35,841 nt of DNA from Rufibacter ruber (GTDB lineage: Bacteria > Bacteroidota > Bacteroidia > Cytophagales > Hymenobacteraceae): NCBI RefSeq assembly GCF_001647275.1, contig NZ_LRMM01000058.1, positions 1-35,841 of the forward strand, read 5' to 3'. Below the pieces are notes generated by a model that was not told the origin of the DNA, did no database searches, and saw only the letters and a list, made by a program, of their open reading frames with translations. The translations under genes and the position numbers were made by a program. Shown here one piece after another: positions 2,742 to 35,187 of this stretch (positions within the stretch are counted from its first letter, which is position 1; the number at the start of each line of letters is the position of its first letter).

Positions 2742-2781
2742 TGTTTTAGGGCTGATTTGACCAAAACAGGTCAGAAACAGC
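2742..2781. repeat. GTTTT/AAAAC palindrome, degenerate copy
   Basis: Divergent member of the intergenic palindrome family. The outer CTGTTT / AAACAG arms match, and the inner arms carry several mismatches. Confidence 0.5.
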
Positions 2782-2841
2782 ATCTGCACCAAGACTTTCC
2801 GGTAACGGCGGTGTAGTGGCTAAGCCAAAATTCCAGTTCCT

Positions 2842-2881
2842 GCGTTTTGGGGCTACTTTCCCAAAAACAGCCCCAAAACAG
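2842..2881. repeat. GTTTT/AAAAC palindrome
   Basis: Arms GTTTTGGGGCT and AGCCCCAAAAC match exactly; the inner A/T part is imperfect. Confidence 0.75.
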
Positions 2882-3061
2882 CAGCTTGCTTCTCTTAAAG
2901 GCTCAAGCGCACGCTTGCGCCCTAACCTGTGCTAAAACATGAACAGCTTCACCGTTAGAGGTTAACGGTCTGCCTGCCAAGCGGGAAAATGGGTAAGAAT
3001 GAGATCCCGGTGGGAAAGGAAACCTTACCGGTTTGGCAGGATCTTACCCCACCTTTGGAAA

Positions 3062-4111
3062 TTACTTTGCCTTGGGTGAATTCACCTTCTGCAGCAGGAG
3101 TTCCGGTTCATTGGTGGTGATAAAATCTGCGTTGCGCTCCAGGAGCCAGTCCATGATGTTGGGGTCATTGACCGTCCAGACGTTGACGGTGAGGTGCAGG
3201 CGGTGGGCCTCTGTAATCCACTCCGGGTTCTTCTGCACCACGCTCTGGTGGTAGTCAAAGCCGTACATCTGGTCTTGGGCGAGTTGGGCAGGCGTTTTCT
3301 CCCCGTTCAGGTAAGAGACATGGGCAGAGGGCTCCAGCTCCAGCACCTTTTCCAGGATGGCATAGTCAAAGCTGATGTAGTCAACCCAGCCCTGGGCCTG
3401 CTGCCGCTGCACCATCTCCACCACCTTCTGCGCCAGCGCCTGCCCCCGCTCCTTGCTGATGGCCGAAGGTTTGATTTCCAGGATGAGCCTGGTTTTGTTC
3501 TGGTTCAAGCCCGCGTTGAGGTATGCCTCCAGCGTTGGCAGGCTCTCCCCGTTGGGTAATTTCACCTCAGCCAGCTCAGCCGCCGGGGTCTTTTCAATGT
3601 GCAGCCCCTTGATGTCATGGTCATGGTTCACAAACAGCACAGAATCTACCGACATGTGCACGTCAAACTCGCTTCCGGTGCAGCCCAACCGGATGGCATG
3701 CTGTAGCGCGCCAATGGAGTTCTCAGGGGCACCGGTGTTTTTCCAGGCGCCGCGGTGGGCAATGACTTTGTTTTTGATGAATTCGTCCTTCACAATTCTG
3801 AAGGAATACTGCTTTCCGGCTGCCTCCAGCACCACCTCCAGCCATTGGCTCTGCGGGGTAGACGCGGCCGCCTTCTTTACCTTGAGCGTCTTGTCTTTGC
3901 TTAACTCAAACAGCCGCGCACTTTCTATAGAGAGTTTCACCTGGGGCGTACCCGCTCCTTTTGAAACGGGCATCACTTTCCCCACCACCAGGTTCTGCGG
4001 GGTATAGGAAAAGTTGGAGAGGGTGATGGGGGCTTGAGCCATGGCCACAGAGGGTAACAGGAGGGTACAGAATACAAAAAACAATCTGGCAACAGGGGTG
4101 TGAAGTCTCAT
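3062..4111 (-). CDS. Secreted glycerophosphodiester phosphodiesterase
   Basis: About 349 residues. It hydrolyses glycerophosphodiesters to sn-glycerol 3-phosphate and an alcohol. The GDPD catalytic signature is clear: HRGAWKNTGAPENS from H119, then GSEFDVHMSVD and VNHDHDI, which supply the metal-binding E/D and the second catalytic histidine. Residues 1-25 (MRLHTPVARLFFVFCTLLLPSVAMAQ) form a signal peptide with an AMA-Q cleavage site, so the enzyme is probably periplasmic. Residues 26-110 form an extra N-terminal domain that is not part of the GDPD barrel and that I do not recognise. The frame is open upstream to 4285, but the extra 58 residues run through a palindrome copy and would bury the signal peptide, so the ATG at 4111 is preferred. 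Confidence 0.9.
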   Translation of the reverse strand: MRLHTPVARLFFVFCTLLLPSVAMAQAPITLSNFSYTPQNLVVGKVMPVSKGAGTPQVKLSIESARLFELSKDKTLKVKKAAASTPQSQWLEVVLEAAGKQYSFRIVKDEFIKNKVIAHRGAWKNTGAPENSIGALQHAIRLGCTGSEFDVHMSVDSVLFVNHDHDIKGLHIEKTPAAELAEVKLPNGESLPTLEAYLNAGLNQNKTRLILEIKPSAISKERGQALAQKVVEMVQRQQAQGWVDYISFDYAILEKVLELEPSAHVSYLNGEKTPAQLAQDQMYGFDYHQSVVQKNPEWITEAHRLHLTVNVWTVNDPNIMDWLLERNADFITTNEPELLLQKVNSPKAK

Positions 4112-4187
4112 AAGAAACAGGTTCAGTGAAGGTTTACAAGTAAGTACTATATCTGCTTTCATGCCAGTAATAAGAAGGGAAAAGTTT

Positions 4188-4227
4188 CTGTTTTGGGGCT
4201 GTTTTCTGAAAAACGGCTCCAAAACAG
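4188..4227. repeat. GTTTT/AAAAC palindrome
   Basis: Arms CTGTTTTGGGGCTGTTTT and AAAACGGCTCCAAAACAG pair with two mismatches. It lies between ilvA and the phosphodiesterase gene. Confidence 0.8.
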
Positions 4228-4342
4228 GAATGTCTAAAAGCGAATACCCCACCACCTTTCGGCAGCAGGGCATTCTACACAACACACAACACTAACTTTA
4301 AACGAACTGTTAAGCGTACTCTAAACAAACTAAAATGAACTC

Positions 4343-5614
4343 TTATACAAACAGGTTCAGAAAATCCTGCCGGCCGTTGAGGTACTCATAGGCGAAGCCT
4401 TCCTCCAGCATGCGCAGTTTGATGGCTTCCACATCCTGCGGGTGCTTCACCTCTACCCCAATGAACACGGGGCCTTTCTCCTTGTTGTTCTTCTTGATGT
4501 ACTGGAAATGAATGATGTCATCTTCTGGGTGCAGCACGCGGTTCACGAAGGTGCGCAGCGCCCCGGGCTTCTGGTTGAACGTGACCATGAAGTAGTGCTT
4601 GAGGCCCTGGTGCTGCAACGCGCGTTCCTTGATATCTTCCATGCGGGTGATGTCATTGTTGCTGCCGCTGATCACGCATACCACGTTTTTGCCTTTGATT
4701 TCCCCCGCGAAATCTTTTAGAGCCGAAATGCTCAAGGTGCCGGCCGGTTCCAATACCACGCCTTCCTCATTGTACATCTTGAGAATGTCTTCGCAGATCT
4801 GGCCTTCGGGCACCAGCACCACGTCATCCAGCAGTTCGCGGCAGATCTCAAACGTGATCTCACCGGGGCATTTCACGGCCGCCCCATCTACAAACGAGTC
4901 AATGGTCTCCAGCGCCTGACGCCGGTTTTCTTTAATGGACCGGTACATAGACGGCGCGCCCAGCGGCTGTACCCCAATCAGTCTGGTGTTAGGGCTCACC
5001 TGCTTGAACACACTAGAGACGCCTGAGGCCAACCCGCCCCCGCCAATGGGCATGAACAGGTAATCAATGGCAAAATCAGCGTCTTTGAAAATCTCCAGCC
5101 CCACGGTGGCCTGGCCTTCTACAATGGCCAGGTCATCAAACGGCGGAATAAACGCGCTGCCCCGGGCGTCACAGAATTCTTTGGCGGCCTTGAACGTGTC
5201 ATCATACGTGGCACCGGTGAGCACCACCTCTACCATGTCTTTCCCGAAGAGGCGGACTTTGTTCACCTTCTGGGCGGGCGTTTGGGCGGGCATGAAGATG
5301 TAGCCTTTGATACCCAGCAATTGGCAGGCATAGGCAACGCCCTGCGCGTGGTTTCCGGCGCTGGAGCAGACAATCTCCCCCGCCCTTTCCTCGGCAGAAA
5401 GCGACGAAATCTTGTTGTACGCCCCTCTAATTTTGTAGGAACGCACCACCTGCAGGTCTTCGCGCTTCAGATAGATCTCCGCCCCGTAGGTCTCAGATAG
5501 CCACAGGTTCTTCATCAGGGGCGTTTTATAGATCACCCCTTTCAGGTTCTTGGCCGCCTTCTCTACGTTCCCCAGCGCTACCACGGTTTCTAATGAAGCT
5601 GTCTCTTTCTGCAT
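4343..5614 (-). CDS. ilvA: Threonine ammonia-lyase (threonine dehydratase)
   Basis: About 423 residues. This PLP enzyme deaminates L-threonine to 2-oxobutanoate, the first committed step of isoleucine synthesis. K61 in RSYKIRGAYN is the PLP Schiff-base lysine, SSAGNHAQGVA is the substrate/asparagine loop, and GGGGLASG is the phosphate-binding loop. After the catalytic domain comes a single ACT-like domain of about 90 residues (HYFMVTFNQKPGALRTFV to the end), the short biosynthetic form likely to sense isoleucine. The ATG at 5614 is preferred over the longer frame to 5737, because the extra 41 residues are read through a palindrome and a MITE-like repeat; GAAAGAAGAA just upstream is a weak ribosome site. 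The gene is separated from ilvC by 435 bp containing a strong hairpin, so it may be transcribed separately from the main cluster. Confidence 0.95.
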   Translation of the reverse strand: MQKETASLETVVALGNVEKAAKNLKGVIYKTPLMKNLWLSETYGAEIYLKREDLQVVRSYKIRGAYNKISSLSAEERAGEIVCSSAGNHAQGVAYACQLLGIKGYIFMPAQTPAQKVNKVRLFGKDMVEVVLTGATYDDTFKAAKEFCDARGSAFIPPFDDLAIVEGQATVGLEIFKDADFAIDYLFMPIGGGGLASGVSSVFKQVSPNTRLIGVQPLGAPSMYRSIKENRRQALETIDSFVDGAAVKCPGEITFEICRELLDDVVLVPEGQICEDILKMYNEEGVVLEPAGTLSISALKDFAGEIKGKNVVCVISGSNNDITRMEDIKERALQHQGLKHYFMVTFNQKPGALRTFVNRVLHPEDDIIHFQYIKKNNKEKGPVFIGVEVKHPQDVEAIKLRMLEEGFAYEYLNGRQDFLNLFV

Positions 5615-5630
5615 GGTGAATTCTTCTTTC

Positions 5631-5669
5631 TGCTTTTGTCCTGTTTTCAGAAAACAAGCCCTAAAACAA
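5631..5669. repeat. GTTTT/AAAAC palindrome, ilvA side
   Basis: Inner arms around TGTTTTCAGAAAACA match well and the outer arms are imperfect. It starts 17 bp upstream of the ilvA start and forms the ilvA-proximal edge of the ilvC/ilvA island. Confidence 0.7.
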
Positions 5670-5681
5670 GTACCTTTTTCC

Positions 5682-5919
5682 CTGGCGCGAGTCTTCAGAC
5701 TCGTGCCGATGGATGGGTGGAGTCTCCAGACTCCCATTTTACGCTTGGTCTAACTCCTGACAGACCAACGCACTTCGAATCAGTGCCTTTTCGGTCTGTT
5801 AGGGGACAGACCGGGGGAGGTAGTTTCCAGACTCCATTCGTCAAAATCCTACTCGTGGCTCCCGGCGAGTCTGGAGACTAGCATCATCTTTTGTCACGAG
5901 TCTGGAGACTCGCGCCAGT
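5682..5919. repeat. MITE-like element with 24-bp inverted ends
   Basis: A 238-bp non-coding element. Its ends, 5682-5705 and 5896-5919, are inverted repeats of 24 bp with one mismatch; both are built on CTGGCGCGAGTCT. Inside are further GGAGTCT/AGACTCC copies and two small hairpins: TTGGTCT/AGACCAA (5745-5768) and CGGTCTGT/ACAGACCG (5792-5813). No transposase is present. Related shorter elements occur at 7257-7315 and 11618-11719, all in gaps of the same gene cluster. Confidence 0.8.
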
Positions 5920-5935
5920 TGGATCCAGTTGGGTA

Positions 5936-5972
5936 AAAGCCTGTGAAGCCTAAGAGACTTCACAGGCTTTTC
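5936..5972 (-). terminator. Strong hairpin terminator after ilvC
   Basis: A perfect 14-bp stem (AAAAGCCTGTGAAG with its complement) and a 9-nt loop. A-runs precede and T-runs follow the GC core on either strand, so it can work in both directions. It lies 77 bp past the ilvC stop and 320 bp before the ilvA start, and probably ends or attenuates the ilvC transcript. Confidence 0.82.
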
Positions 5973-5976
5973 TACT

Positions 5977-6008
5977 TTGGGCCTGTTTTCTGGAAAACAG
6001 GCCAAAAT
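5977..6008. repeat. GTTTT/AAAAC palindrome, ilvC side
   Basis: A perfect 10-bp inner stem, GGCCTGTTTT / AAAACAGGCC, around CTGG. It lies 40 bp past the ilvC stop. Confidence 0.8.
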
Positions 6009-6049
6009 GTATTTCAACCAATTTGCTTTTCCTCTGATGAGGGAAAGTT

Positions 6050-7093
6050 CTATCTGCCGGAACGCAGTTTTCTTACGGTAGCCCCGGTCTGCCATAACTC
6101 AGACTCACGCACCTCCGCCAACTCGGCTTCCAGCTCGGCACGGTAGCCTGGGGTTGAACCGCGCTGAATGGTACGGGCCGCTTCCTGGCCAGAAGCCACG
6201 CTGTCATACAGTTCATTCAATACCGGAAGAGTAGCCTCACGGAATTTGCCTTTCCAATCTAAAGCGCCGCGCTGGGCGGTTACCGAGCAGTTGCTGAACA
6301 TCCAGTCCATACCGTTCTCGCCTACCAATGGCACTAAGCTTTGGGTCAGTTCTTCCACCGTCTCATTAAACGCCTCAGACGGAGAGTGACCGCGCTGACG
6401 CAACACCTGGTACTGGGCTTCAATGATACCCGCCAAAGCACCCATCAACACACCGCGCTCACCGGTTAAGTCAGAGTATACTTCTTTTTTGAAATCGGTC
6501 TCGAACAGGTAACCAGAACCAACGCCAATCCCCATAGCAATAGCTTTTTCATAGGCTTTACCGGTGGCATCCTGGAACACCGCGAACGATGAGTTCAGGC
6601 CGCTGCCGGCCAGGAACAGACGGCGCAGGCTGGTGCCGCTTCCTTTAGGAGCTACCAGAATCACATCCACATCAGCGGGCGGAACAATGTTGGTTTGCTC
6701 TTTGAAGGTGATACCGAAACCGTGCGAGAAATACAGGGTGTTGCCTGGCTTCAGTCTTTCTTTGATGGTGGGCCACACGGCAATCTGACCGGCGTCTGAC
6801 AACAGGTTGCAGATGATGGTACCGCGCTCCACGGCTTCTTCAATAGAGAACAACGTCTCGCCTTCTACAAAACCATCTTGCTTGGCTTTCTCCCAAGAGG
6901 CTGAATCCTTGCGCTGGCCCACAATCACCTTGAAGCCATTGTCGCGCATGTTCAATGCCTGGCCCGGACCTTGCACGCCGTAGCCAATCACCGCAATCAC
7001 TTCGTCTTTCAGGGTCTCTTGGGCTTTTGCCAACGGATATTCATCGCGGGTTACCACGGTTTCTTCTACACCGCCGAAATTAATCTTTGCCAT
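6050..7093 (-). CDS. ilvC: Ketol-acid reductoisomerase
   Basis: 347 residues. It rearranges and reduces 2-acetolactate or 2-aceto-2-hydroxybutanoate to the 2,3-dihydroxy acid, using NADPH and two Mg2+. The N-terminal Rossmann motif is GYGVQGPGQA, followed by a GQRKDSASW loop typical of NADPH-dependent class I enzymes. Metal-binding acidic residues lie in SDLTGERGVL and in the EAQYQVL helix, and the conserved VAPKGSGTSLRR segment is intact. The length fits the short class I form. It follows ilvN in the same direction after a 341-bp gap filled by inverted repeats. The next feature downstream is a palindrome and a strong hairpin, so it may be the last gene of the main transcript. Confidence 0.97.
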   Translation of the reverse strand: MAKINFGGVEETVVTRDEYPLAKAQETLKDEVIAVIGYGVQGPGQALNMRDNGFKVIVGQRKDSASWEKAKQDGFVEGETLFSIEEAVERGTIICNLLSDAGQIAVWPTIKERLKPGNTLYFSHGFGITFKEQTNIVPPADVDVILVAPKGSGTSLRRLFLAGSGLNSSFAVFQDATGKAYEKAIAMGIGVGSGYLFETDFKKEVYSDLTGERGVLMGALAGIIEAQYQVLRQRGHSPSEAFNETVEELTQSLVPLVGENGMDWMFSNCSVTAQRGALDWKGKFREATLPVLNELYDSVASGQEAARTIQRGSTPGYRAELEAELAEVRESELWQTGATVRKLRSGR

Positions 7094-7199
7094 TTTACTG
7101 TAGCTAATAAAGGTTTTAAGATGATTTTACTAAATTAAGTGGAGGTGAAACCTCACCCCCGGCCCCTCTCCCACGGAGAGGGGAGTTTTTATGGTTTTG

Positions 7200-7236
7200 C
7201 GTTTTCGGCCTAGTTTCTGAAAAACAGGTCAAAAAC
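7200..7236. repeat. GTTTT/AAAAC palindrome
   Basis: Inner half GGCCTAGTTT pairs imperfectly with AAAACAGGTC. Part of the ilvN/ilvC island. Confidence 0.75.
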
Positions 7237-7256
7237 AGGTTTTACCTTTTCTTTTC

Positions 7257-7315
7257 TTGGCGCGGGTCTTCAGACTCGCTTCACTGGTGGTCACGAGACT
7301 GGAGTCTCGCGCCAG
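7257..7315. repeat. Short GAGTCT inverted-repeat element
   Basis: A 59-bp relative of the 5682-5919 element. Ends TTGGCGCGGGTCTTCAGACT and AGACTGGAGTCTCGCGCCAG are imperfect inverted copies with almost no interior. Confidence 0.7.
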
Positions 7316-7344
7316 TTGGTTACACGCCAAAAGGTTGCCATATT

Positions 7345-7384
7345 CCTGTTTTCAGCCTGTTTTTTTGAAAATCAGGCCAAAATC
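7345..7384. repeat. GTTTT/AAAAC palindrome
   Basis: GCCTGTTTT / AAAATCAGGC inner arms with a T-rich loop. Part of the ilvN/ilvC island. Confidence 0.75.
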
Positions 7385-7434
7385 GAATTTCTGTTCTCCC
7401 CTCTCCGTGGGAGAGGGGCCGGGGGTGAGGTTCC

Positions 7435-8043
7435 TTACATGCTGAACACCTTCTCGCGGCTGTTCAGGAACTCGTTTTCCATGACTTCATGGCCCGGCTC
7501 GGCGCGTTCAAACTCGCGCAGTTTGCGGTTGAAGCCGTCGCTGTCTTTGATGATGGCGATGCGGGCGCTGCGCACAAACTCTATCAGCCCGAACGGCTGC
7601 AGAATCTTGATCAGGTTGTCGGTTTCCTCGCGGTGGCCGGTGGTTTCAAAGACGGTATAATCTTTTCTAATCACCACCACTCGGGCGCCGTTTTCGCGCA
7701 GCAGCCGCTCTACTTTGGCTTTCTCGGCCACAATGTCGGTGGGCACTTTGTAGAGCGCCATCTCCTGCCAAATCACGTCTTCGTTGGTGTTGTAGTACAC
7801 CTTAAGCACCTCTACCTGTTTCTCAATCTGGCGGGCAATTTTGCTCACCACCTCTTCAGTTTCGTGTACCACGATGTTGAAGCGGTGGATTCCCTCAATT
7901 TCGCTGGGCGAGGTGTTGAGGCTTTCAATGTTCATCTTGCGGCGGGAGAATATCATGGCGATGCGGTTGAGCAACCCAATCTGGTTCTCTGTGTACACCG
8001 TGATGTTGTATTCCTGCCGTTCTATTGGCGCTTGCTCACTCAT
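7435..8043 (-). CDS. ilvN: Acetolactate synthase small (regulatory) subunit
   Basis: 202 residues. This regulatory subunit of acetohydroxyacid synthase activates the IlvB catalytic subunit and gives valine feedback. The N-terminal ACT domain is clear (YNITVYTENQIGLLNRIAMI, then MNIESLNTSPSE), and a second ACT-like half follows (residues about 85-170), as in the longer IlvH/IlvN type. It starts 21 bp after the ilvB stop with AGAAGAAG directly before the ATG, a good site for tight co-expression. Only 4 bp separate its stop from the repeat island that fills the gap to ilvC. Confidence 0.96.
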   Translation of the reverse strand: MSEQAPIERQEYNITVYTENQIGLLNRIAMIFSRRKMNIESLNTSPSEIEGIHRFNIVVHETEEVVSKIARQIEKQVEVLKVYYNTNEDVIWQEMALYKVPTDIVAEKAKVERLLRENGARVVVIRKDYTVFETTGHREETDNLIKILQPFGLIEFVRSARIAIIKDSDGFNRKLREFERAEPGHEVMENEFLNSREKVFSM

Positions 8044-8064
8044 CTTCTTCTTGGTTTAGCAAGG

Positions 8065-9798
8065 TTATTTCAATCTGATTTCACTCACGCTGCAGCCCTG
8101 TGGCACCATAGGGAACACGTTGTTCTCTTTGGTCACCATCACTTCCAGCAGGAAAGAACCAGGATTGGTAAGCATTTTCTGCAACGCCTCCACCAGGTTT
8201 TCGCGCTGATTGATGCTGCGGCCCGGTATGCCGTAGCCCTTGGCTACCGTCACGTAATCTGGGCTGGTGATGTCCACGAACGAGTAGCGGCGCTCATGGA
8301 ACAGCTCCTGCCACTGGCGCACCATGCCCAGAAACTGGTTGTTCAGAATCAGGATTTTCACGTCTATGCCGCTCTGCATGATGGTGCCCAGTTCCTGAAT
8401 GGTCATCTGCACGCCTCCGTCGCCAATTACGGCCACCACGGTTCTGTCAGGTGCCCCAAACTTGGCCCCGATGGCCGCTGGTAACGCGAAGCCCATGGTA
8501 CCCAAACCGCCGCTGGTGATGTTGCTGCGTGTCTGGTTCAGTTTGGCGTAGCGGCAGGCCACCATCTGGTGCTGCCCCACGTCGGTGACAATAATGGCGT
8601 CGCCTTTGGTGAGCTCGTTCAGTTGTTGAATCACCTCACCCATGGTCATCTCATCGCTGGTGGGGAACAGCTCTTCCCGAATCACCGCGTCAATCTCCTT
8701 CTGCTCGAACTCCCGGAATTTGGCCAGCCACTCGGTATGCTGCTTGGTTTCCACCATTTGGGTGAGCAACGGCAAGGTTTCTTTGCAGTCGCCCCACACG
8801 GGGACGGTGGTCTTCACGTTTTTGTCAATCTCAGCGGGGTCAATGTCCAGGTGAATGACTTGCGCTTGCTTGGCGTATTTGTCCAGACGGCCGGTCACAC
8901 GGTCATCGAAGCGCATGCCTATAGCAATCAGGACATCGCACTCATTGGTCATCACGTTGGGGCCGTAGTTGCCGTGCATGCCCAACATGCCTACGTTCTG
9001 CGGGTGATCAGTAGGCAAGGCACCCGCGCCCATGATGGTCCACGCCGCCGGAATCCCGGTTTTCTCCAAGAAAGCCCTGAACTCCTGTTCGGCGGAGCCG
9101 AGCATCACGCCCTGCCCCCAAAGCACAAACGGCTTCTTGGCTTTGTTAATTAATTCCGCCGCCTGGCGAATGTATTCTTTGCGCACAATGGGCTTGGGCC
9201 GATAGCTGCGGATGTGGTCACACGGCGTGTAGCCTTTGAACGCAAACTTTTGCAGCTGGGCGTTTTTGGTAATGTCAATCAACACCGGACCGGGGCGACC
9301 ACTGCGGGCTATGTGAAAAGCCTTGGCCAACACCTCCGGAATCTCGGTGGCATCAGTGACCTGATAATTCCATTTGGTGACCGGTGTGGTAATGCCAATT
9401 ACATCGGCTTCCTGAAACGCATCGGTGCCCAGTAAGTGCGCGAAAACCTGACCTGTGATGCAGACCAAGGGTGTGCTGTCAATCAAAGCATCGGCGAGGC
9501 CGGTCACCAAGTTGGTGGCACCTGGGCCGCTGGTGGCGAACACCACGCCTACTTTTCCGGAGCTTCGGGCGTAGCCCTGACCGGCATGAATGCCGCCTTG
9601 CTCGTGGCGCACCAATATGTGTTTCAAGTCGCCTTCAAAGTCATAGAGCGCATCATAGATGGGCATGATGGCTCCACCCGGATAGCCGAAGATAGTGTCT
9701 ACACCTTCCACCACGAAACCGTGCAGTAGCGCCTGGCTACCGCTCAACATGGTGTCTGTCTCAGGCAAGGCTGGGGCTTGTTTCTCTTGCGTTAACAT
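8065..9798 (-). CDS. ilvB: Acetolactate synthase large (catalytic) subunit
   Basis: About 577 residues. It condenses two pyruvates to 2-acetolactate, or pyruvate with 2-oxobutanoate to 2-aceto-2-hydroxybutanoate, with TPP, FAD and Mg2+. The N-terminal TPP domain holds [14 protein letters not shown] and the catalytic glutamate in RHEQGG. The central FAD domain and the C-terminal TPP motif (GDGGVQM to [13 protein letters not shown]) are intact. The ATG at 9798 overlaps the end of ilvD by 38 bp. Alternatives are 9843 (overlap 83 bp) and 9750 (no overlap, 10 bp past the ilvD stop, directly before MLSGSQALL). The first gives a typical leader length and is my choice, but 9750 cannot be excluded. 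Translational coupling with ilvD is likely. Confidence 0.95.
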
Positions 9799-11482
9799 AA
9801 GCTTCGTCTTGTAAATCGGTGATACAACCGTGGCTGGCATCACTTACCGTTCTAATGTATTTCAACAATACCCCGCTCTGCACGTTGGCTTTCGGGCGTT
9901 GCCACACGCTTCTGCGGGCAGTTAATTCAGCTTCGTCTAGCTGCACGTCTATGGTGTTGGTGGAGGCGTCCAGCACAATCCAGTCGCCGTCTTCTACCAG
10001 GGCAATGGTACCGCCGTCGTAGGCTTCGGGGCTCACGTGGCCTATCACAAACCCGTGGGTTCCGCCCGAGAAACGACCATCTGTAATGAGGGCTACTTTA
10101 TCGCCTAGACCCGCGCCCATAATGGCCGAGGTGGGTTTCAACATTTCGGGCATGCCCGGACCGCCTTTGGGCCCCACGTACCGAATGACGACGACCTGAC
10201 CCGGTTGAATTTTGCCGGCGGCGATGCCCTCATTCAGTTCTTCTTCAGAGTTAAACACTATAGCAGGGCCTTCAAATCGCAGTCCTTCTTTGCCCGAAAT
10301 CTTAGCCACCGCTCCTTTAGAGGCCAGGTTGCCGTACAGAATCTGGATATGGCCGTCTGATTTGATGGGGTTGGAAAGCGGTCTCAACAAGTCCTGCTCC
10401 GCGCCTAGCGGTTTTATATTTTCTAGGTTTTCGGCCAGCGTTTTGCCCGTAACGGTCAATAAATCTCCGTTCAGCAAACCCGCTTCCAGCAGCGTTTTCT
10501 GCACCGCCGGTACGCCGCCTAAGGCGGAAAGGTCTTCCATGAGGTACTTGCCGCTCGGTTTCAGGTCAGCCAACACCGGCACGCGGTTGCTCACGTCCTG
10601 AAAATCTTCCATGGTCAAATGCACGCCCGCGGCGTGGGCAATGGCGATGAGGTGCAGCACAGCGTTGGTAGAGCCGCCCAGTACCGTAATCATGACCAGG
10701 GCATTTTCAAAGGCCTCGCGGGTTAAGATGTCTCTGGGCTTGATGTCTTTCTCTAACAAATTCAGAATGTAGGCCCCGGTGTCCAAGGCTTCCTGATTTT
10801 TCTCTGGGCTCACGGCCGTGGCCGAGGAAGAGAAAGGCAGGCTCATGCCCAGGGTCTCAATGGCGGCGGCCATGGTGTTGGCGGTGTACATTCCGCCGCA
10901 GGCACCCGGACCCGGACATGCGTTCCGGATGATGCCGCGGTAATCTTCGTCTGAGATAGTGCCGTTCAGTTTCTTGCCGTAGGCTTCAAAGCAGGAAACA
11001 ATGTTCAGCTTCTGGCCTTTGTACTCGCCGCCTTTGATGGTACCGCCGTAAATCATCACCGAGGGGCGGTTCAAGCGCGCCATGGCAATCAAGGCACCCG
11101 GCATGTTCTTGTCACAGCCTACCACCGTGCCCACTGCGTCATAGTAATGCGCACCGGCCATGGCTTCAATGGAATCAGCAATCAGCTCTCTACTCACCAG
11201 CGAATAGCGCATGCCCGCGTTGCCGTTGGTGATGCCGTCGCTCACGCCAATGGTGTTGAACCGCAGGCCCACCATGCCGTTGGCCTGCACGCCCATTTTC
11301 ACGGCATCGGCGAGGCCGTTCAGGTGCATGTTGCAGGTGTTCCCTTCAAAGCCGGTAGAGCAGATGCCCACAAACGGTTTGCGCAGGTCTTCTTCTTTCA
11401 CCCCTGAGCCAATTAGCATGGCCTGAGAGGCCGGAAGGCTGTCGTCTTTGGTGTAGATGCCGCTGTATTTATTTAGAGCCAT
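9761..11482 (-). CDS. ilvD: Dihydroxy-acid dehydratase
   Basis: 573 residues. This iron-sulfur enzyme dehydrates 2,3-dihydroxy acids to the 2-oxo acids of the valine and isoleucine pathways. The three cluster cysteines appear in [16 protein letters not shown] and [13 protein letters not shown], and a metal-binding lysine probably lies near GCDKN. The C-terminal catalytic [14 protein letters not shown] is intact. The length is normal for the ILVD/EDD family. The C-terminal tail (about 20 residues after the SDASHGC region) overlaps the ilvB start. The gene begins directly after a 500-bp repeat-filled gap that follows leuB, so it is either read through from leuA or has a promoter hidden in that gap; I saw no clear one. 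Confidence 0.97.
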
Positions 11483-11564
11483 GGTTTGCTATTTTTACCT
11501 CACCCCCGGCCCCTCTCCCACGGAGAGGGGAGCTAAGCGGTAAAGCATTTTTTAAATGTTATTG

Positions 11565-11602
11565 CGTTTTTGGCCTACTTTCTAAAAAACAGGCCGGAAA
11601 CG
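11565..11602. repeat. GTTTT/AAAAC palindrome
   Basis: Outer CGTTTTTGGCCT pairs with AGGCCGGAAACG with mismatches. Part of the leuB/ilvD island. Confidence 0.75.
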
Positions 11603-11617
11603 AATTCTTTTAATTTT

Positions 11618-11719
11618 AACTGGTGCGAGTCTCCAGACTCCAGTGCTCCACTTTTGTTTCCCGACGAGTCTGGAGACTCGCTTTATCTCTTGATATGAGA
11701 CCGGAGTCTCGCGACAATT
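11618..11719. repeat. Degenerate GAGTCT inverted-repeat element
   Basis: About 102 bp with imperfect inverted ends (GTGCGAGTCTCCAGACTC and GAGACCGGAGTCTCGCGAC) and an internal CGAGTCTGGAGACTCG palindrome. Related to 5682-5919 and 7257-7315. Confidence 0.65.
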
Positions 11720-11737
11720 GGGGATTAGTTTATTTTC

Positions 11738-11774
11738 CGTTTTTGGTCAAATTTCTGGAAATCAGCCCGAAAAC
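11738..11774. repeat. GTTTT/AAAAC palindrome, degenerate copy
   Basis: Outer arms CGTTTTTGG and CCGAAAAC remain recognisable; the inner part is eroded. Confidence 0.6.
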
Positions 11775-11896
11775 ATATTGGTTTATCCATCTTCCTCGGT
11801 CTGTCAGGGGATAAACCAAGGAAACAGAAAAATTTTATTCTGTTAGTCACGGAAGTAACTCCCGCGCCCATAGTAAACAGGTTACATTCCATTTTC

Positions 11897-11934
11897 CGTT
11901 TTCGGCTTATTTTCTGAAAAACAGGCCAAAAACG
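11897..11934. repeat. GTTTT/AAAAC palindrome
   Basis: CGTTTTCGGCTTATTTT pairs with AAAAACAGGCCAAAAACG, with a few mismatches. Confidence 0.75.
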
Positions 11935-11982
11935 CATTTCCGTTCTCCCCTCTCCGTGGGAGAGGGGCCGAGGGGTGAGGTC

Positions 11983-13101
11983 CTAAATAATAGTACTTAG
12001 CCCCAACTCCAGGTTTTTCAAATGCCGGAAACACTCGCCGCCCTCCTGCACATAGTCGGCAATGAAGCAGCCGACTTGCTCAGTGGTGTAAGGGTTATCG
12101 CTGTTCAGTTCTGGGGTTAGCACTTTTCTTCTGAGGGCATAATCCACGCCTTCTTTTACCAGGGTTGCCTCGTCATACATCCCGAAGTGCTCCAGCATCA
12201 TGGCCACTGAAAGTATTGTGGCGATTGGATTGGCGATGCCTAAGCCTTTGCCCTGCGGGAAAGAACCGTGAATAGGCTCAAACAACGCTGCGGTTTCTCC
12301 TATTGAGGCCGAAGGCAACAAGCCCAGAGAACCGGCTATCACCGATGCCTCATCTGAGATTATATCGCCGAACATGTTCTCGGTGAGAATCACGTCAAAT
12401 TGCTTGGGGTTCAGAATCATCTGCATGGCGGCGTTGTCCACGAACAGGTAATCAACTGCAACAGAAGGATATTCCGGGGCAATCTGCTGCACCACTTCAC
12501 GCCACAGACGGGAAGTTTCCAGCACGTTGGCTTTGTCTACTAGAGTCAGTTTGTTGCGGCGCGTGGTAGCCGATTGGAACGCCAAGAGTGCAATACGTAC
12601 AATTTCCTCACGGGAATAAGTGCAGTGGTCATACGCTCCATCGGCGGTACGGCCTTTCTCCCCGAAATAGATACCGCCGGTCAGCTCGCGGTAAATCAAC
12701 ATATCAGCCCCTTGAATGCGGTCAGCCTTCAGCGGTGAGTGCTCAATTAACACATCATAAGCGGTCACCGGACGGATGTTGGCGAACAGACCTAATGACT
12801 TTCTTAGCCGCAATAGCCCTTGCTCCGGACGTACTTTGGCAGCAGGATTGTTGTCATATTTCGGGTCCCCGATGGCGCCCAATAAGATGGCATCGGCCTC
12901 AAAGCAAGCCTGTAGGGTTGACTCCGGAAGCGGGTCGCCGGTGGCGTCAATGGCGCAGGCGCCCATGAGTTGCACGTCCAGCTCAAACTGGTGCCCGAAA
13001 CGCTCAGACACCGCCTCCAGCACTTTCAGGGCCTCGGTACAAACTTCCGGCCCGATTCCGTCGCCGGGTAAAACGGCTATTCTTTTAGTTAATACGCCCA
13101 T
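11983..13101 (-). CDS. leuB: 3-isopropylmalate dehydrogenase
   Basis: 372 residues. It oxidises and decarboxylates 3-isopropylmalate to 2-oxoisocaproate with NAD+ in leucine synthesis. Recognised from the N-terminal [10 protein letters not shown], the [11 protein letters not shown] segment, the substrate-binding [15 protein letters not shown], the YREL catalytic tyrosine region ([14 protein letters not shown]), the metal site [20 protein letters not shown] and the cofactor loop [18 protein letters not shown]. Length is normal. Its start overlaps the end of leuD by 13 bp, which implies translational coupling. Just 2 bp after its stop begins the repeat island leading to ilvD. Confidence 0.97.
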
Positions 13102-13685
13102 GGTCGGTTGCTTTCGTATTGTTCTATCGCTTCTTTCTGGTTCACTAAAAAATCAATGTCATCGTAGCCATTGATCATGCACTCTTTTTTGTAGGCGTCA
13201 ATGGCGAAGGGGATTTTCTCTTCCCACACCGGCACTTCCAGTTCCTGGTTCACCAGGTTCACCACCAACGTAGTCTGCGGGTCTTGCTCAATCTGAGTCA
13301 GCAATCTTGCCAGCACCTCATCGCTCACCTGCAGTGGCAACAGGCCATTGTTCAACGCATTGCCTTTAAAGATATCAGCGAAGAAGCTGGAGATGACCAC
13401 TTTAAAACCGGCATCATAAATGGCCCAGGCAGCGTGCTCACGGCTACTGCCGCACCCGAAGTTTTTGCCTGCCACCAGAATTTTTCCGCTATAGCGGCCG
13501 GTGTTCATGACAAAATCTGCCTTGGGCTGACCCGCGTTGTCAAAGCGCCAGTCTCTGAATAAGTTCTCCCCGAAGCCCTCGCGGGAGGTGGCCTTTAAAA
13601 AGCGGGCCGGGATAATCTGGTCGGTATCTATATTCTCAATCGGCAGCGGAACCGCTGTGGATTGAAGCACTTCAAACTTTTCCAT
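13089..13685 (-). CDS. leuD: 3-isopropylmalate dehydratase small subunit
   Basis: 198 residues. This swivel-domain subunit pairs with LeuC to isomerise 2-isopropylmalate to 3-isopropylmalate. Key motifs are [14 protein letters not shown] near the start and [16 protein letters not shown] in the middle, the hallmark of the small subunit of the aconitase superfamily. Length matches bacterial LeuD. It ends inside the leuB start (13-bp overlap). It is separated from leuC by 212 bp containing a pair of inverted repeats, which is unusual because leuC and leuD are often nearly contiguous. Confidence 0.96.
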
Positions 13686-13732
13686 TTAACTGCTTTATGT
13701 GCCACAAGTGCACTTTACAATTCTTTATATGA

Positions 13733-13876
13733 TCGTCCCCCTTGGAAGGGGGTTGGGGGATGATTACTCGTGCAGATGTTCGCATTCCCGAGAATCAATA
13801 TTTCTTTTTTCTGGGTTGAAGCTGATGGTTCTTCAACTGCCTTTGTCATCCCCCTACCCCCTTCCAAGGGGGACGA
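13733..13876. repeat. Inverted pair of REP-like repeats between leuC and leuD
   Basis: Two 31-bp inverted arms, 13733-13763 and 13846-13876, with one mismatch, enclose 82 bp. Each arm has a CCCCCTTGGAAGGGGG hairpin and a GGGGGATGA-type tail pointing inward. The interior carries a GTTGAA/TTCAAC mini-hairpin. The plan (C/G hairpin plus G5 tail) is like the 35-bp arms of the other islands, with the tails in the opposite orientation. No gene is inside. Confidence 0.82.
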
Positions 13877-13897
13877 CCAGGTATGCGTACCTAAAAA

Positions 13898-15292: not shown

Positions 15293-15381
15293 AGTTGTCA
15301 CGTTTGTCATCTGGTAAGGCTGCTCTCTTCTACTTTTCCCTTCTCACTTTTGCCGTGTTCATTCAAGATGACAGCGGGTAA

Positions 15382-18242: not shown

Positions 18243-18246
18243 TTCA

Positions 18247-18284
18247 CGTTTTTGGCCCCTTTTTTGGAAAACAGGCAAAAACAG
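18247..18284. repeat. GTTTT/AAAAC palindrome
   Basis: Imperfect copy starting 4 bp after the stop of the helical-repeat gene. Confidence 0.65.
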
Positions 18285-18365
18285 AGGTTCCGCTTTGCCA
18301 TAGCCAGTCAATACTGAGGAGCACCGCCACGTCTATTCGTTCTCAGTTCAGGCCGTGGCTAGAAA

Positions 18366-20096: not shown

Positions 20097-20132
20097 GAGT
20101 AGACATCCGGTTCTTGCCAGAACGCGCTTCCG

Positions 20133-20170
20133 CTGTTTCTAGCCTGTTTTTTAAAAAACAGGCCAGAAAC
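20133..20170. repeat. GTTTT/AAAAC palindrome, strong copy
   Basis: GTTTCTAGCCTGTTTTTT pairs with AAAAAACAGGCCAGAAAC with one mismatch in 18 bp and no loop to speak of. It follows the metallopeptidase stop by 36 bp. Confidence 0.85.
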
Positions 20171-20286
20171 AAAATACCGCTTTGCTTCCCTAAGAAAATC
20201 TGATCTTACAGCTTCTGCCAATTCATATCATCCTTACCTTCAGCAGTCGCAACACTTCTCTCCTAACACTGTTGAAACCGAACCCC

Positions 20287-21549: not shown

Positions 21550-21706
21550 TCTTAAAGCTCGTCGCATCATCAAAAATTCAAACGCTCATATCAACTTCAC
21601 AGCGGTATTTCGCCGGCTGCGCACTTCTTAGGTGTACGGGGAGAGGTAGATTCCGTTGGAAAAATCCTGCTGGTTTCTTTGCAGACTGCCATTGCCGCTG
21701 TACTTT

Positions 21707-21745
21707 CTGTTTTTAGCCTGTTTTTCAGAAAACAGACCCAAAACG
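21707..21745. repeat. GTTTT/AAAAC palindrome
   Basis: Inner CTGTTTTTCAGAAAACAG is nearly perfect; the outer arms are imperfect. Confidence 0.78.
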
Positions 21746-21929
21746 CCCTGTAGCCGTTTTCAGGCAGGCGTTCCATGGCTGCATCAGGGATCTTACCCGC
21801 AATAACCCTCTGAAAGTCAACACTAAAAAACTTCAACCCCCTTCCACCCTCCGCGGGGCGCGGTTTAAAGTACCATAACAGTTCTGGCTGGTCACGGCTT
21901 GTCTGGCCAAAGTTCTTCCGGTTTCGCCT

Positions 21930-22843: not shown

Positions 22844-22873
22844 TAGTGCCATTTTCACCGGGCGGCTCATTTC

Positions 22874-22913
22874 CTGTTTTTGGCCTGTTTTCAGAAAAAC
22901 AGCTCCAAAACAG
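22874..22913. repeat. GTTTT/AAAAC palindrome
   Basis: CTGTTTTTGGCCTGTTTT pairs with AAAACAGCTCCAAAACAG with three mismatches or wobbles. It lies 30 bp after the bestrophin stop. Confidence 0.8.
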
Positions 22914-22940
22914 CCTTGCCAGATAGTTTGGCCAAAACAA

Positions 22941-22980
22941 AAAGAGCCAGCGGCGCATGCATTGCCCGCTGGCTCTTTTT
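22941..22980 (+). terminator. Intrinsic terminator after the bestrophin gene
   Basis: A 13-bp perfect stem (AAAGAGCCAGCGG with its complement), a 12-nt loop and a run of T directly after the stem on the plus strand. Its A-rich left side would serve the opposite strand, so it may separate the convergent bestrophin and YceI genes both ways. Confidence 0.88.
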
Positions 22981-23051
22981 TTAGGGTGGAAGCCGGTAGG
23001 GCTTCTGATTTTGTCTCTGGCACAGCGGCTGCCTAGGCCTCTGGAGAGATT

Positions 23052-23090
23052 CTGTTTTAGACCTGTTTTCTGAAAAACAGCCCTAAAACG
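23052..23090. repeat. GTTTT/AAAAC palindrome
   Basis: CTGTTTTAGACCTGTTTT with CTGA loop and AAAACAGCCCTAAAACG. Second copy in the 332-bp convergent gap between the bestrophin and YceI genes. Confidence 0.78.
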
Positions 23091-23175
23091 TTATCACCGG
23101 CAAGTTTTACGCTGATTAAAACGCTTTTACAACAGGAAAACCAGAAAACGGTAAACTGGTTCAGCGGTGAGAGGC

Positions 23176-23712: not shown

Positions 23713-23847
23713 AGTTGTATTGTTAGTTGATGGTTTGCGGCCCGAGCTAAGGTATACGATCCCCACTGCTTCGGGTTGATTTACCGTTAAAACATTTAAT
23801 GTACCTACATAGATAAAGAAATCAGCTTTCCGCTCCAAACAAATTCT

Positions 23848-23884
23848 CTGTTTCTGGCCTGTTTTTTTGAAATCAGGCCCAAAC
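23848..23884. repeat. GTTTT/AAAAC palindrome, degenerate copy
   Basis: GTTTCTGGCCTG with a T-run loop and CAGGCCCAAAC. Lies between the YceI and FUSC genes. Confidence 0.7.
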
Positions 23885-23949
23885 CGGCCATCTGCCCCTG
23901 CTGTCAATGCCTTCTGGTTTACAGCAGTTTACCTGCCCTGCAATGGGAG

Positions 23950-26195: not shown

Positions 26196-26435
26196 TTTTT
26201 TAATTTGCCAATTGGGTAATGTGCTCTGGAAGGTATGCATTAGGCTTAACAAGATTGAAAACAGGGCAAACAACTTTGGCATATCTTCTCTTTTCTGTCA
26301 TTCTAAAAGAACCCTGGCAGCGAACGGTAACACCCATACTCCAAAAAAGCTGAGTTCGTCCGCAGGTTGCTTTCAGAAGAACAATCAGATTAAAATGTTT
26401 TTAATTTATCCGGCTACGCCGATGCTTTGAAAATG

Positions 26436-26473
26436 CGTTTATGGCCTGTTTTCCGGAAATCAGCACGAAAACG
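26436..26473. repeat. GTTTT/AAAAC palindrome
   Basis: CGTTTATGGCCTGTTTT-CCGG-AAATCAGCACGAAAACG; moderately eroded. Confidence 0.7.
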
Positions 26474-26548
26474 TCTTTTCAATCATGTCCTCTTAACGGA
26501 AAAACAGCATGCAGAGATTGACTCAAGAACACAGTTCAATCCCTGCTC

Positions 26549-26588
26549 CTGTTTTCGGTTTGTTTTCCAGAAAGTAAGCCAAAAACAG
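26549..26588. repeat. GTTTT/AAAAC palindrome
   Basis: CTGTTTTCGGTTTGTTTT-CCAG with right arm AAAGTAAGCCAAAAACAG; imperfect. Confidence 0.7.
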
Positions 26589-26643
26589 CAAGTACCGTAC
26601 AACCTTCTTTATTCTTCCAGCATTCACTCTTTCACGCATTGTT

Positions 26644-27639: not shown

Positions 27640-27644
27640 TTTTT

Positions 27645-27685
27645 CCTGTTTTCGGCCTGTTTTTCAAAAAGTAGCCCGAAAACAG
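27645..27685. repeat. GTTTT/AAAAC palindrome
   Basis: CCTGTTTTCGGCCTGTTTTT with right arm AAAAAGTAGCCCGAAAACAG; two to three mismatches. It begins 5 bp after the ypdA stop. Confidence 0.8.
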
Positions 27686-27837
27686 AATTTTCATAACCCG
27701 GAGAAGCGCCCCGGTACTGCCTGAATGGGAAGTCAAAATAACACCAGAGCCACAATTTTCTTTTCTTTGTGGCCGTACCACCTCATGCAGTACGGTTTTA
27801 TAGTTTAATCCTTTTGCTCTTGCCCGCTTTTTACGCC

Positions 27838-28419: not shown

Positions 28420-28599
28420 CCCCCTTCTTCACTACCGAGTAAACCCCACTTCCCTGCAAAAAACTAAGGATCACAAGTTTCTGTGGGATATTAGAAGGTT
28501 TCTCCAAAGAAACCAGATCTCACATTATCTGTAAAATTCTTTTTTTCAAGCACTTAACTAACAGAAAAACGCTTCCTGTCTATTTCCTGAAAAATTAAA

Positions 28600-28631
28600 T
28601 TGTTTTCTCCACCGGTTACACCGTTTCTTTG
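28600..28631 (+). promoter_or_regulatory. Promoter candidate of the efflux operon
   Basis: TTG at 28600-28602, 21 bp spacer, TTTCTTTG at 28624-28631, one base off the TAnnTTTG -7 consensus. The TetR start codon is 43 bp further on. Confidence 0.5.
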
Positions 28632-28641
28632 CGCGACCGAA

Positions 28642-28651
28642 TGAACGTTCA
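28642..28651. promoter_or_regulatory. Likely TetR operator
   Basis: TGAACGTTCA, a perfect 10-bp palindrome 11 bp past the -7 box and 23 bp before the TetR start. It would overlap the transcription start, the usual place for autorepression by a TetR protein. No second copy was seen in the window's other promoter regions. Confidence 0.5.
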
Positions 28652-28673
28652 ATAGACAATAACGGAGAAGAAG

Positions 28674-29246: not shown

Positions 29247-29278
29247 TTCCCCCTTAACTACCTGTAATACATTCCCAC

Positions 29279-30616: not shown

Positions 30617-30650
30617 TGAACAGAATAGAACTGAAAATCACTTCCCTATA

Positions 30651-31796: not shown

Positions 31797-31832
31797 TCAA
31801 CAATCGTTTACAGTAGCTTTTTCAGAAGAGAC

Positions 31833-34800: not shown

Positions 34801-35003
34801 CGCTGGTGCTGGCCTCTGGGGCGGGGGCCGTGTCCCGCCAGACCATTGGCTGGGTGGTAATTGGCGGTATGCTGGCCGCTACGTTTCTGGCTATCTTCAT
34901 TGTGCCAGTTCTTTACGTGGTGATTACGCGCCTGGCCTACGGCAAGAAAGGCCTGGCCGAACTGCGGGAGCGTCACAAAGGCATTGACTTTGACCATAAT
35001 TAA
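31833..35003 (+). CDS. RND multidrug efflux pump (HAE1, AcrB type)
   Basis: 1056 residues, the expected size of a hydrophobe/amphiphile efflux-1 transporter with 12 membrane segments and two large periplasmic loops. It starts MISDVFIRRPVTSIVISIVI, the classic RND start. The proton-relay residues are present: D409 and D410 in GIVVDDAIVVVEA (TM4) and K943 in LAAKNAILIVEFAKE (TM10). GFIPTEDEGRLF after TM7 and the C-terminal half repeat are intact. It takes drugs or amphiphiles from the periplasm and inner membrane using the proton gradient. The substrate range cannot be predicted. It is the last gene of the operon and is followed 8 bp later by the most perfect palindrome of the window. Confidence 0.96.
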   Translation: MISDVFIRRPVTSIVISIVIVLVGTLAMMNLPVTQYPDISPPTVSVSANYTGADAQTVEQTVATPIETQINGTPGMAYLTSTNTSTGQMNMTVTFEVGTDINIATLDVQNRASVAEPSLPEEVRRLGVTVRKRNPSILMVVGIYSPKKSHDIQYLDNYTNIYVKDALLRVKGVGDVTAIGQDFSMRLWLQPDKMAQYNLSPNQVVASIQEQNMQVAAGTVGARPQYSTQAFQYPITVSGRLATQEEFENIIIRTNPEDGSLVYLRDVARVEFGQFDYGRQSTINGNPAAMMLIYQAPGSNAVETAEGIYATLAEMKKTFPADVDYIVSFESVTVVEVSINEVVHTLLEALVLVIIVVFLFLQSWRATLVPILAIPVSIIGTFIFFIPLGFTINTLTLFGFVLAIGIVVDDAIVVVEAVQHYIDHERLSPREATRRAMKDITAPVIAIALILAAVFIPVGFIPGIVGRLYQQFAITIAISVLISAFVALTLTPALCSLMLRPMNVNRESRGLNKFFYKFNNWFARTTESYSVGVRKSIKAAPLALILLVCLYVGTVGLFAKKPTGFIPTEDEGRLFISVELPEGSSANRTQAILEQMAGIIGEVKAIKNATSISGLNAINFSFKSNSGTFFIQMHPWDQRQEESMRLQGVIGELNQRFSAIKEANIIVVAPPAIPGLGQSGGFSFMLEQRTAGDIKEMERVMGQFLGAANQRPEIAMAYSFFNTRTPGYHVEVDREKVKKLGLNLTDVFATMSSYMGSRYINDFTRYGRNYRVVAQADTAYRMDIKDLGQYYVLNRTGESVPLSAVVSSKVVENPAVISHYNLFRSVEISGSAAPGYSSGQALQALEEVAQQVLPAGYGYDFSGLSREELAAGNSTIYIFALSIVLVLLLLAALYESWSVPFSILFAIPLGMFGAILALTFLPKLDNNVYAQIGMITLIGLAAKNAILIVEFAKERVDRGMELIEATIEAVKLRLRPIIMTSMAFILGVVPLVLASGAGAVSRQTIGWVVIGGMLAATFLAIFIVPVLYVVITRLAYGKKGLAELRERHKGIDFDHN

Positions 35004-35010
35004 CCCCATT

Positions 35011-35052
35011 CCTGTTTTGGGGCTGTTTTTCAGAAAACAGCCCCAAAACAGG
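35011..35052. repeat. GTTTT/AAAAC palindrome, perfect copy
   Basis: Perfect 19-bp arms (35011-35029 and 35034-35052) around TCAG. It begins 8 bp after the pump stop. No T-run follows the stem, so it is not a classic terminator; one lies about 40 bp further on. Confidence 0.92.
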
Positions 35053-35089
35053 AACCACCCGCTCTATGTATAGTAGTGCGTGTTTTACT

Positions 35090-35120
35090 AAAGCCTTGGC
35101 TCTGGGAGCCAGGGCTTTTT
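35090..35120 (+). terminator. Intrinsic terminator after the efflux operon
   Basis: AAAGCCTTGGCTC and GAGCCAGGGCTTT pair over 13 bp with one G-T wobble and a 3-nt loop, followed by TTTTT-type bases on the plus strand. Confidence 0.85.
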
Positions 35121-35145
35121 CTTACCAACCCGTTTATCAGCCCGC

Positions 35146-35187
35146 CTGTGTTTTTGAGCTACTTTTGTAAAAACAGGCCGAAAACAG
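35146..35187. repeat. GTTTT/AAAAC palindrome
   Basis: Outer arms CTGTGTTTTTGAGCT and GGCCGAAAACAG, imperfect inside. The copy contains a TACTTTTG box. Confidence 0.7.
35160..35167 (+). promoter_or_regulatory. -7-like box inside a palindrome copy
   Basis: TACTTTTG fits TAnnTTTG exactly, about 98 bp before the last gene. No convincing -33 box; it may be chance. Confidence 0.3.

Follow-up and report, generated by a model that had tools for sequence, protein, structure and literature searches.

Short palindromic repeats are common in bacterial genomes, and their purpose is disputed. In Escherichia coli, bacterial interspersed mosaic elements (BIMEs) are palindromic DNA sites at the 3' ends of transcription units and are bound by gyrase, IHF and HU. 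Here we describe a palindromic element of 42-46 bp in a 35,841-nt stretch of Rufibacter ruber DNA (contig NZ_LRMM01000058.1; the whole stretch is referred to as the window), in which an original prediction, made from the sequence alone, had noticed about 21 copies between genes. Among its closest described counterparts are the repetitive extragenic palindromes (REPs), which are short, extragenic, high-copy palindromes that lie mostly 3' of genes, in convergent or tandem gaps (PMC3733652); the element likewise resembles the REPs of E. coli, Pseudomonas and Stenotrophomonas, with their REP-associated tyrosine transposases (RAYTs), in being a high-copy extragenic palindrome with a bias towards gene ends. 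Gene-end placement alone is therefore not new, because REPs elsewhere show the same bias (PMC3733652).

The element differs from REP/RAYT systems with GTAG or CGTC tags in that its consensus carries no tag and any RAYT of its own would be putative; it differs further in that every window copy is a complete dyad with unvarying spacing, in the steadiness of its T/A tracts and in its retention at orthologous places across the genus. Like BIMEs, it would be a palindromic DNA site at 3' ends, but BIMEs are protein-bound whereas its protein is putative, and it is a single palindrome whereas BIMEs are mosaic pairs. The DNA uptake sequences (DUS) of Neisseriaceae, which number thousands of copies, keep a constant core through their dialects and form inverted pairs near terminators (PMC3630211), share its copy number in the thousands and its species dialects; however, DUS are often intragenic, whereas the element is paired and intergenic. 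Bidirectional intrinsic terminators, finally, are resembled by a minority of perfect copies with a basal stem and T-runs (e.g. that between the HIT and ruvC genes), whereas most copies lack T-runs and good pairing. In one open-licence full-text library no paper joins Rufibacter, genome and repetitive extragenic, or palindromic, repeats, intergenic and Hymenobacter; the matches to Rufibacter, repeat and palindromic concern other genera, judged by title, and the name Rufibacter is absent from the portion of the RepRanger paper (PMC12306157) consulted. The family is dense (~1 per 2 kb), limited to one genus among the sampled genomes and retained in place across it, and pairing alone does not account for which of its bases are steady, so that it offers a route to separate DNA-level from RNA-level function.

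A dense, genus-restricted element at gene ends

The element consists of the half YGTTTTnGGSCTGTTTT, a 4-nt centre (mostly CAGA, CTGA, TCTG or TCAG) and the inverted half, and it carries four T/A tracts whose starts lie 11 bp apart within each half, the inner two being separated by 4 nt. A repeat search of the window grouped 20 copies without gaps into a single family and assigned the copy at 18245 to another, and a first position-weight matrix, whose training set included a wrong row at 26476 that was later removed, found all 21 together with two weak extras near 26480 and 35791 (scores 11-13). When as many as 3 mismatches were allowed, the half-site GTTTTNGGCCTGTTTTC matched the window 39 times (mean 0.5 and maximum 2 in 100 dinucleotide shuffles); by our own reading of the match list 38 of these 39 fall inside palindromes, and half-sites are thus nearly always paired, at constant spacing and between genes. 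All 21 copies are intergenic in our rough gene calls, which were made by a simple script with codon usage trained on long frames and have approximate start positions. The repeated palindrome is thereby confirmed, with the predicted number and intergenic setting of its copies. No Rfam family matched anywhere in the window at the gathering score, and a known RNA family was rejected for the element on that basis.

In a 435.8-kb sample of the same genome (G000; the other G numbers denote further genomes compared), window included, a refined matrix trained on those same 435.8 kb found 216 copies scoring at least 12, and 0 in the reversed sequence. A larger G000 sample of 595.8 kb held 295 copies at score 15, or 0.50 per kb; extrapolated from the sampled stretches, which were hand-chosen and mostly taken from longer contigs, this gives an estimated ~2,700 copies per 5.5-Mb genome. 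The genome-wide numbers combine such stretches with pattern counts, which for half-sites with up to 2 mismatches came to 1520 + 1471 in G000, whereas the reversed pattern gave 3 + 2.

Among 150 genomes sampled from the family, each of the 16 Rufibacter genomes held 133-1520 forward half-sites, versus 0-13, near their controls, in the other 134; a separate count gave at most 17 half-sites each in 21 non-Rufibacter members of the family and in 22 genomes from other families of the order. The element is therefore restricted to one genus among the genomes sampled, and the suggestion that it is lineage-specific is borne out. The ketol-acid reductoisomerase of the window shares 99% identity with the Rufibacter roseus enzyme, followed by records from Sabulibacter ruber and further Rufibacter. 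The consensus differs by species (GTTTTnGGSCTGTTTT in G000, GTTTAGGGGCTGTTTTT in G004, CGTTTTTGGCCTGTTTTC in G006 and G013; the species-specific example given for G004 is GTTTAGGGGCT), and half-site counts are low in species of another dialect because the search pattern follows the G000 consensus: G004 has only 188 forward half-sites, yet a sampled density of 0.39 copies per kb.

Copies are distributed unevenly over the kinds of gap. With nine genomes pooled, the element occupies 71 of 86 convergent gaps of 45-200 nt, 141 of 337 tandem gaps and 5 of 42 divergent gaps (Fisher p = 7e-12 and 9e-5 along this gradient); in G000, the 51 convergent gaps between 45 and 3000 nt long include 49 that are occupied, with 20/20 among those up to 200 nt. 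Within 80 nt, copies in five genomes lie closer to stops and farther from starts than under random placement (in G000, 38% of 220 distances are at most 40 nt from a stop vs. 21% expected). The element thus marks gene 3' ends, convergent ones above all, and the earlier link to gene 3' ends holds well beyond the window.

Orthologous retention and the pairing of the arms

Because synteny between G000 and G004 left just 8 gaps to compare, orthologues were studied in the pairs G002-G003 and G011-G014 instead. Orthologous gaps agree closely in occupancy (G002-G003, n = 114: 50 both occupied, 56 both empty, 8 discordant; G011-G014, n = 75: 27, 41 and 7, respectively). At leuB, 10 of 11 species have a copy that starts 5-10 nt past the last aligned codon, i.e. 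2-7 nt 3' of the stop, and only in G000 does a different repeat intervene between stop and copy; the ilvN-ilvC gap contains a copy in 11/11 genomes compared. When sites were anchored by their flanks alone, anchoring worked for 12 of 69 copies from G002 to G003 and 13 of 71 in reverse (mostly the same sites), and for 3/40 and 3/37 copies between G011 and G014; the anchored spacers measured 42-52 nt, apart from single cases of 69 and 70, and in this small, flank-selected set there was no clean empty site. Copies are thus kept in place across the genus, a pattern best read as vertical inheritance. Upstream of ilvC, in the single example of its kind, G004 and G001 are 0.90 and 0.91 alike in the flanks and 0.67 alike in the core; there the site persisted although its sequence changed.

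Substitution rates were taken solely from flank-anchored pairs. Nine same-length sites were scored (seven G002-G003, two G011-G014), with columns 10, 11 and 21-23 and their mirror images counted as T/A columns and the centre counted among the other core columns. In the seven sites that were clean, 0 of 70 T/A cells had changed, compared with 34 of 196 other core cells and flanks that had diverged by ~8%, a comparison that is approximate since flanks were chosen for similarity and sites are few. Inclusion of the two sites set aside (G002 178327, out of register, and G002 147986, a doubtful element) gave 1/90 and 50/252. A wholly rewritten core (21 changes, G003 57188) was rejected as an alignment out of register. 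No detected copy was required in the second species, and the steadiness of the T/A cells is therefore not a detection artefact; it hints that the T/A tracts, not pairing, are the steadiest part of the element.

The 21 window copies are 79.6% paired in the true register vs. at most 55.4% when the arms are slid, and some of them carry the predicted mismatches that keep pairing, but their covariation score is barely above that of shuffles (0.151 vs. 0.133 ± 0.015; equalled or exceeded in 55 of 500). The two arms of an element in the G000 sample are alike at 0.738, compared with 0.723 ± 0.005 between elements, a small but real excess; at column 16/35 (GC 62, CG 52, CC 43 and GG 40 in 216 G000 copies) G or C occurs on each side almost independently. 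Nor do wobble pairs point to a transcript: 238 tandem copies from five genomes hold 263 G-U against 298 A-C on the sense strand, and in a larger set from seven genomes no tandem pairing class showed an excess of G-U over A-C, copies with 15-16 of 17 pairs holding 34 against 32. Three classes from convergent and divergent gaps, whose orientation is arbitrary, had nominally more G-U (p = 0.01-0.05). Near-independent arms and the lack of a sense-strand G-U excess suggest that RNA pairing is not generally selected, the HIT-ruvC gap discussed below excepted. The original prediction had looked to genome-wide enrichment and to compensatory changes between arms; enrichment is overwhelming and compensation weak, and its interpretation is, overall, partly supported. 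An excess of pairing, smaller than that of the HIT-ruvC gap, does appear at the stop sites of ilvC (0.782 vs. 0.699) and leuB (0.824 vs. 0.764) and upstream of ilvC (0.770 vs. 0.709 ± 0.022), but it is confounded with the species consensus because both halves share one dialect.

A DNA site or an RNA end

We reasoned that steady T/A tracts, strand symmetry and gene-end placement together favour a dyad-symmetric DNA site for a protein, and we tentatively read the element as a genus-specific, REP-like gene-end site that is perhaps bound by a putative chromosomal protein. It would act as double-stranded DNA, a dimeric or tetrameric protein contacting the four T/A tracts and leaving the remaining bases largely free. 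An element that follows genes and is of use to both strands is likely to have its role at the gene end, where we infer that the protein might handle positive supercoils or polymerases running into convergent gaps, in the way that gyrase- and IHF-binding BIMEs may do in E. coli. The minority of perfect palindromes, some with locus-specific basal stems, might in addition form part of terminator hairpins, and we read them as copies used in, or shaped by, termination. It is a more doubtful step from there to a system spanning the genome that blocks polymerases in both directions, insulates genes or loads topoisomerases, in which a strand-symmetric site at almost all convergent gene pairs and at many further gene ends, with a dedicated putative protein, would work beside intrinsic terminators and species dialects would arise by drift. 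If a protein does read these sites, they would amount to a new way of managing gene boundaries.

Several observations weigh against a plain protein site at gene ends. Divergent gaps longer than 200 nt are also occupied in G000 (23 of 40), and no binding protein was found, none having been searched for. Few sites underlie the steadiness of the T/A tracts, to which copying between copies could partly contribute. Terminators are not replaced: once the element is masked, correct-strand signals resembling terminators accompany 267 of 748 gene 3' ends with the element vs. 100 of 362 without it (wrong strand: 84 of 446 in element gaps vs. 58 of 302 in others), and since they are no rarer beside the element, it is not a stand-in for terminators. 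A-tract curvature, calculated with a dinucleotide wedge table, has medians of 33-35 degrees vs. 24-25 for shuffles in G000, G002 and G005, but copies in G004 are no more curved than their shuffles (21.8 vs. 22.8 degrees), and phased A-tract curvature was dropped as a general explanation on that account. Perfect palindromes form a distinct minority in excess of chance (G000, 20 of 215 with 2.1 expected; G004, 22 of 115 with 3.7; G005, 8 of 59 with 0.7; G013, 6 of 36 with 1.1; G002, 4 of 127 with 0.1; G003, 2 of 121 with 0.0; G006, 1 of 46 with 0.3), most strikingly in G000 and G004, and double changes that keep pairing outnumber the permuted expectation between G002 and G003 (34 vs. 14.8 ± 3.5) in a set of 48 same-gap pairs, many with poorly alignable flanks near the random level.

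The convergent gap between the HIT and ruvC genes (Pfam HIT and RuvC) belongs with these points. The matrix matches it in 14 of 16 genomes, G015 having a degenerate hairpin and G000 none, and pairing is kept over 28 pairs, bases outside the element included: in 15 species 88% of these pairs are Watson-Crick, whereas exchanging whole arms at random between species leaves 53% ± 3.6% (at most 66% in 1000 shuffles) and slid registers leave 24-42%, the hairpin being the best inverted repeat per gap, a choice that somewhat inflates the paired fraction. Several columns hold all four pair types, in a tally that takes in one unrelated G000 hairpin, while the TT and TTT columns hardly vary, if at all, a T-run follows downstream, and G-U pairs outnumber A-C (15 vs. 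8). Such pairing, like the excess of perfect palindromes, is unexpected for a plain protein site.

The strongest rival, which we consider doubtful on balance, is an RNA 3'-end function, in which a hairpin in the transcript would end transcription or shield a Rho-generated 3' end from exonucleases. Placement after stops and in convergent gaps is consistent with it, as are the covariation, G-U excess and T-run of the HIT-ruvC gap. Perfect copies fall in 44 tandem, 24 convergent and 2 divergent gaps, vs. 471, 171 and 92 for all copies, and are thus scarce in divergent ones (2 of 70 vs. 92 of 734, p = 0.007); outside G000, tandem and convergent copies with 16-17 of 17 pairs are followed by T more than by A (0.39-0.45 vs. 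0.15-0.19). However, the arms are near-independent in most copies, and tandem copies show no surplus of sense-strand G-U over A-C even at 15-16 of 17 pairs. No T-run follows the copies in G000, where, of 178 tandem copies, 30 have a four-T run in the 3' flank and 28 have one in the 5' flank; a G+C-rich hairpin with a U-run, as in an intrinsic terminator, is not characteristic of the element there and is confined elsewhere to a minority of well-paired copies. The original judgement that these are not textbook terminators thus stands for most copies. Separate terminator-like signals are equally common or more so with the element, and an RNA function leaves the steadiness of the T/A tracts unexplained.

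A non-autonomous mobile palindrome, REP-like or of the miniature inverted-repeat transposable element type, whether selfish or domesticated, that would have spread through the genus and whose copies would be renewed into species dialects, seems unlikely. High copy number, intergenic position and a species-specific consensus agree with it, as do the G004/G001 site upstream of ilvC, with its kept flanks and differing core, and the gene-end bias that is usual for REPs too (PMC3733652). The element is indeed a short, extragenic, high-copy palindrome, slightly longer at 42-46 bp than the 20-40 bp of REPs. Three Y1-transposase genes (Pfam Y1_Tnp; loci L004, L005 and L006), which on our own reading appear to be of RAYT type, bear other inverted palindromes at their ends, and element copies adjoin two of them on both sides (L004 at 1084 and 1963, L006 at 1313 and 2099). 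The closeness of these copies agrees with a mobile origin, although the other palindromes are the symmetric ends of the genes. Mobility is opposed by those other palindromes, by a consensus (214 copies) that lacks a GTAG or CGTC tag at the stem foot and has ends of the TTTCTG/CAGAAA type, by the retention of copies at orthologous places over the genus, and by the small anchored set, in which no cleanly empty site was seen.

It is improbable that the element is mainly a mutational product, i.e. gene-end palindromes of little function of their own that are repeatedly perfected by template switching between the arms in replication. Template switching is able to create and repair stems, according to PMC8794818, and it could explain the perfect class: consecutive arm pairing is bimodal (mostly at most 10 or at least 14 pairs), and many perfect copies in G004 and G005 extend into unrelated, locus-specific flanks, up to 31 bp. 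It leaves unexplained the steady T/A tracts, the restriction to a genus and the gradient from convergent to tandem to divergent gaps. In the HIT-ruvC gap of G001 (L248), one palindrome arm is doubled in tandem ahead of the hairpin, which might be a trace of a template switch or of slippage. An uptake-like tag for self-recognition with species dialects is very improbable, since window half-sites are paired at fixed spacing between genes, even if DUS likewise come in thousands of copies, dialects and inverted terminator pairs (PMC3630211).

Copies in the window and neighbouring repeats

Table 1. The 21 palindrome copies of the window. Positions are those of the window; core pairs are out of 17.
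Feature	Positions	Setting	Core pairs
Palindrome copy	2740..2781	Tandem gap	12
Palindrome copy	2841..2882	Tandem gap	14
Palindrome copy	4187..4228	Tandem gap	15
Palindrome copy	5629..5670	~14 nt upstream of called ilvA start	11
Palindrome copy	5971..6012	3' of ilvC stop	13
Palindrome copy	7198..7239	ilvN-ilvC gap	12
Palindrome copy	7345..7386	3' of ilvN stop	9
Palindrome copy	11563..11604	leuB-ilvD gap	13
Palindrome copy	11736..11777	leuB-ilvD gap	12
Palindrome copy	11895..11936	Closest to leuB stop, ~45 nt off	14
Palindrome copy	18245..18286	Immediately 3' of TPR gene stop	12
Palindrome copy	20132..20173	Convergent gap	16
Palindrome copy	21706..21747	Divergent gap	13
Palindrome copy	22873..22914	Convergent gap, adjoins separate terminator-like hairpin	14
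Palindrome copy	23051..23092	Convergent gap of 22873 copy, opposite side of hairpin	14
Palindrome copy	23847..23888	Tandem gap	12
Palindrome copy	26434..26475	Divergent gap	12
Palindrome copy	26548..26589	Divergent gap	13
Palindrome copy	27645..27686	5 nt 3' of stop codon	14
Perfect palindrome copy	35011..35052	3' of RND pump stop; arms 21 bp over 35009-35054	17
Palindrome copy	35147..35188	Tandem gap	12

The short distances to stop codons first noticed for the copies at 18245, 27645 and 35011 hold (2, 5 and 7 nt, with the first column of the core as the reference point), and the perfect copy at 35011, first given 19 bp per arm, in fact has arms of 21 bp. Terminator-like hairpins are visible near 22941 and 35090, the two places where separate terminators had been proposed, and in one convergent gap two copies flank such a hairpin. 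The copy at 5629..5670 has near-identical counterparts at the same place in G004 and G010, and a degraded, weak match to the element lies at 35791-35830 (E 0.035).

The ilv-leu biosynthesis cluster (4343-16548, minus strand; gene names are our own reading of Pfam matches) has the same order in 11 genomes compared, and all three larger internal gaps examined in the window carry the element. A second family of palindromes, GGCGCGAGTCT..AGACTCG, occurs in inverted pairs at 5682-5918, 7252-7319 and 11615-11721 of the window and also flanks the Y1-transposase gene in L006 (1153-1291 and 1960-2098); its members look like true REP elements. In the ilvA-ilvC, ilvC-ilvN and leuB-ilvD gaps of the 11 genomes, a REP cluster often sits between two element copies, and gaps without one often have a single copy; we do not claim that REP clusters are always framed by two copies (3 of 7 GAGTCT clusters in the G000 sample). 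A further repeat of 36-37 bp, CCTCACCCCCGGCCCCTCTCCCACGGAGAGGGGAG, lies near element copies in both orientations (window 7149-7185, 7396-7432 and 11497-11532). Elsewhere in G000, a 20-kb stretch (L157, G000:C77:20001-40000) has no copy and three called genes only, and is possibly acquired DNA or a region misread by the gene caller.

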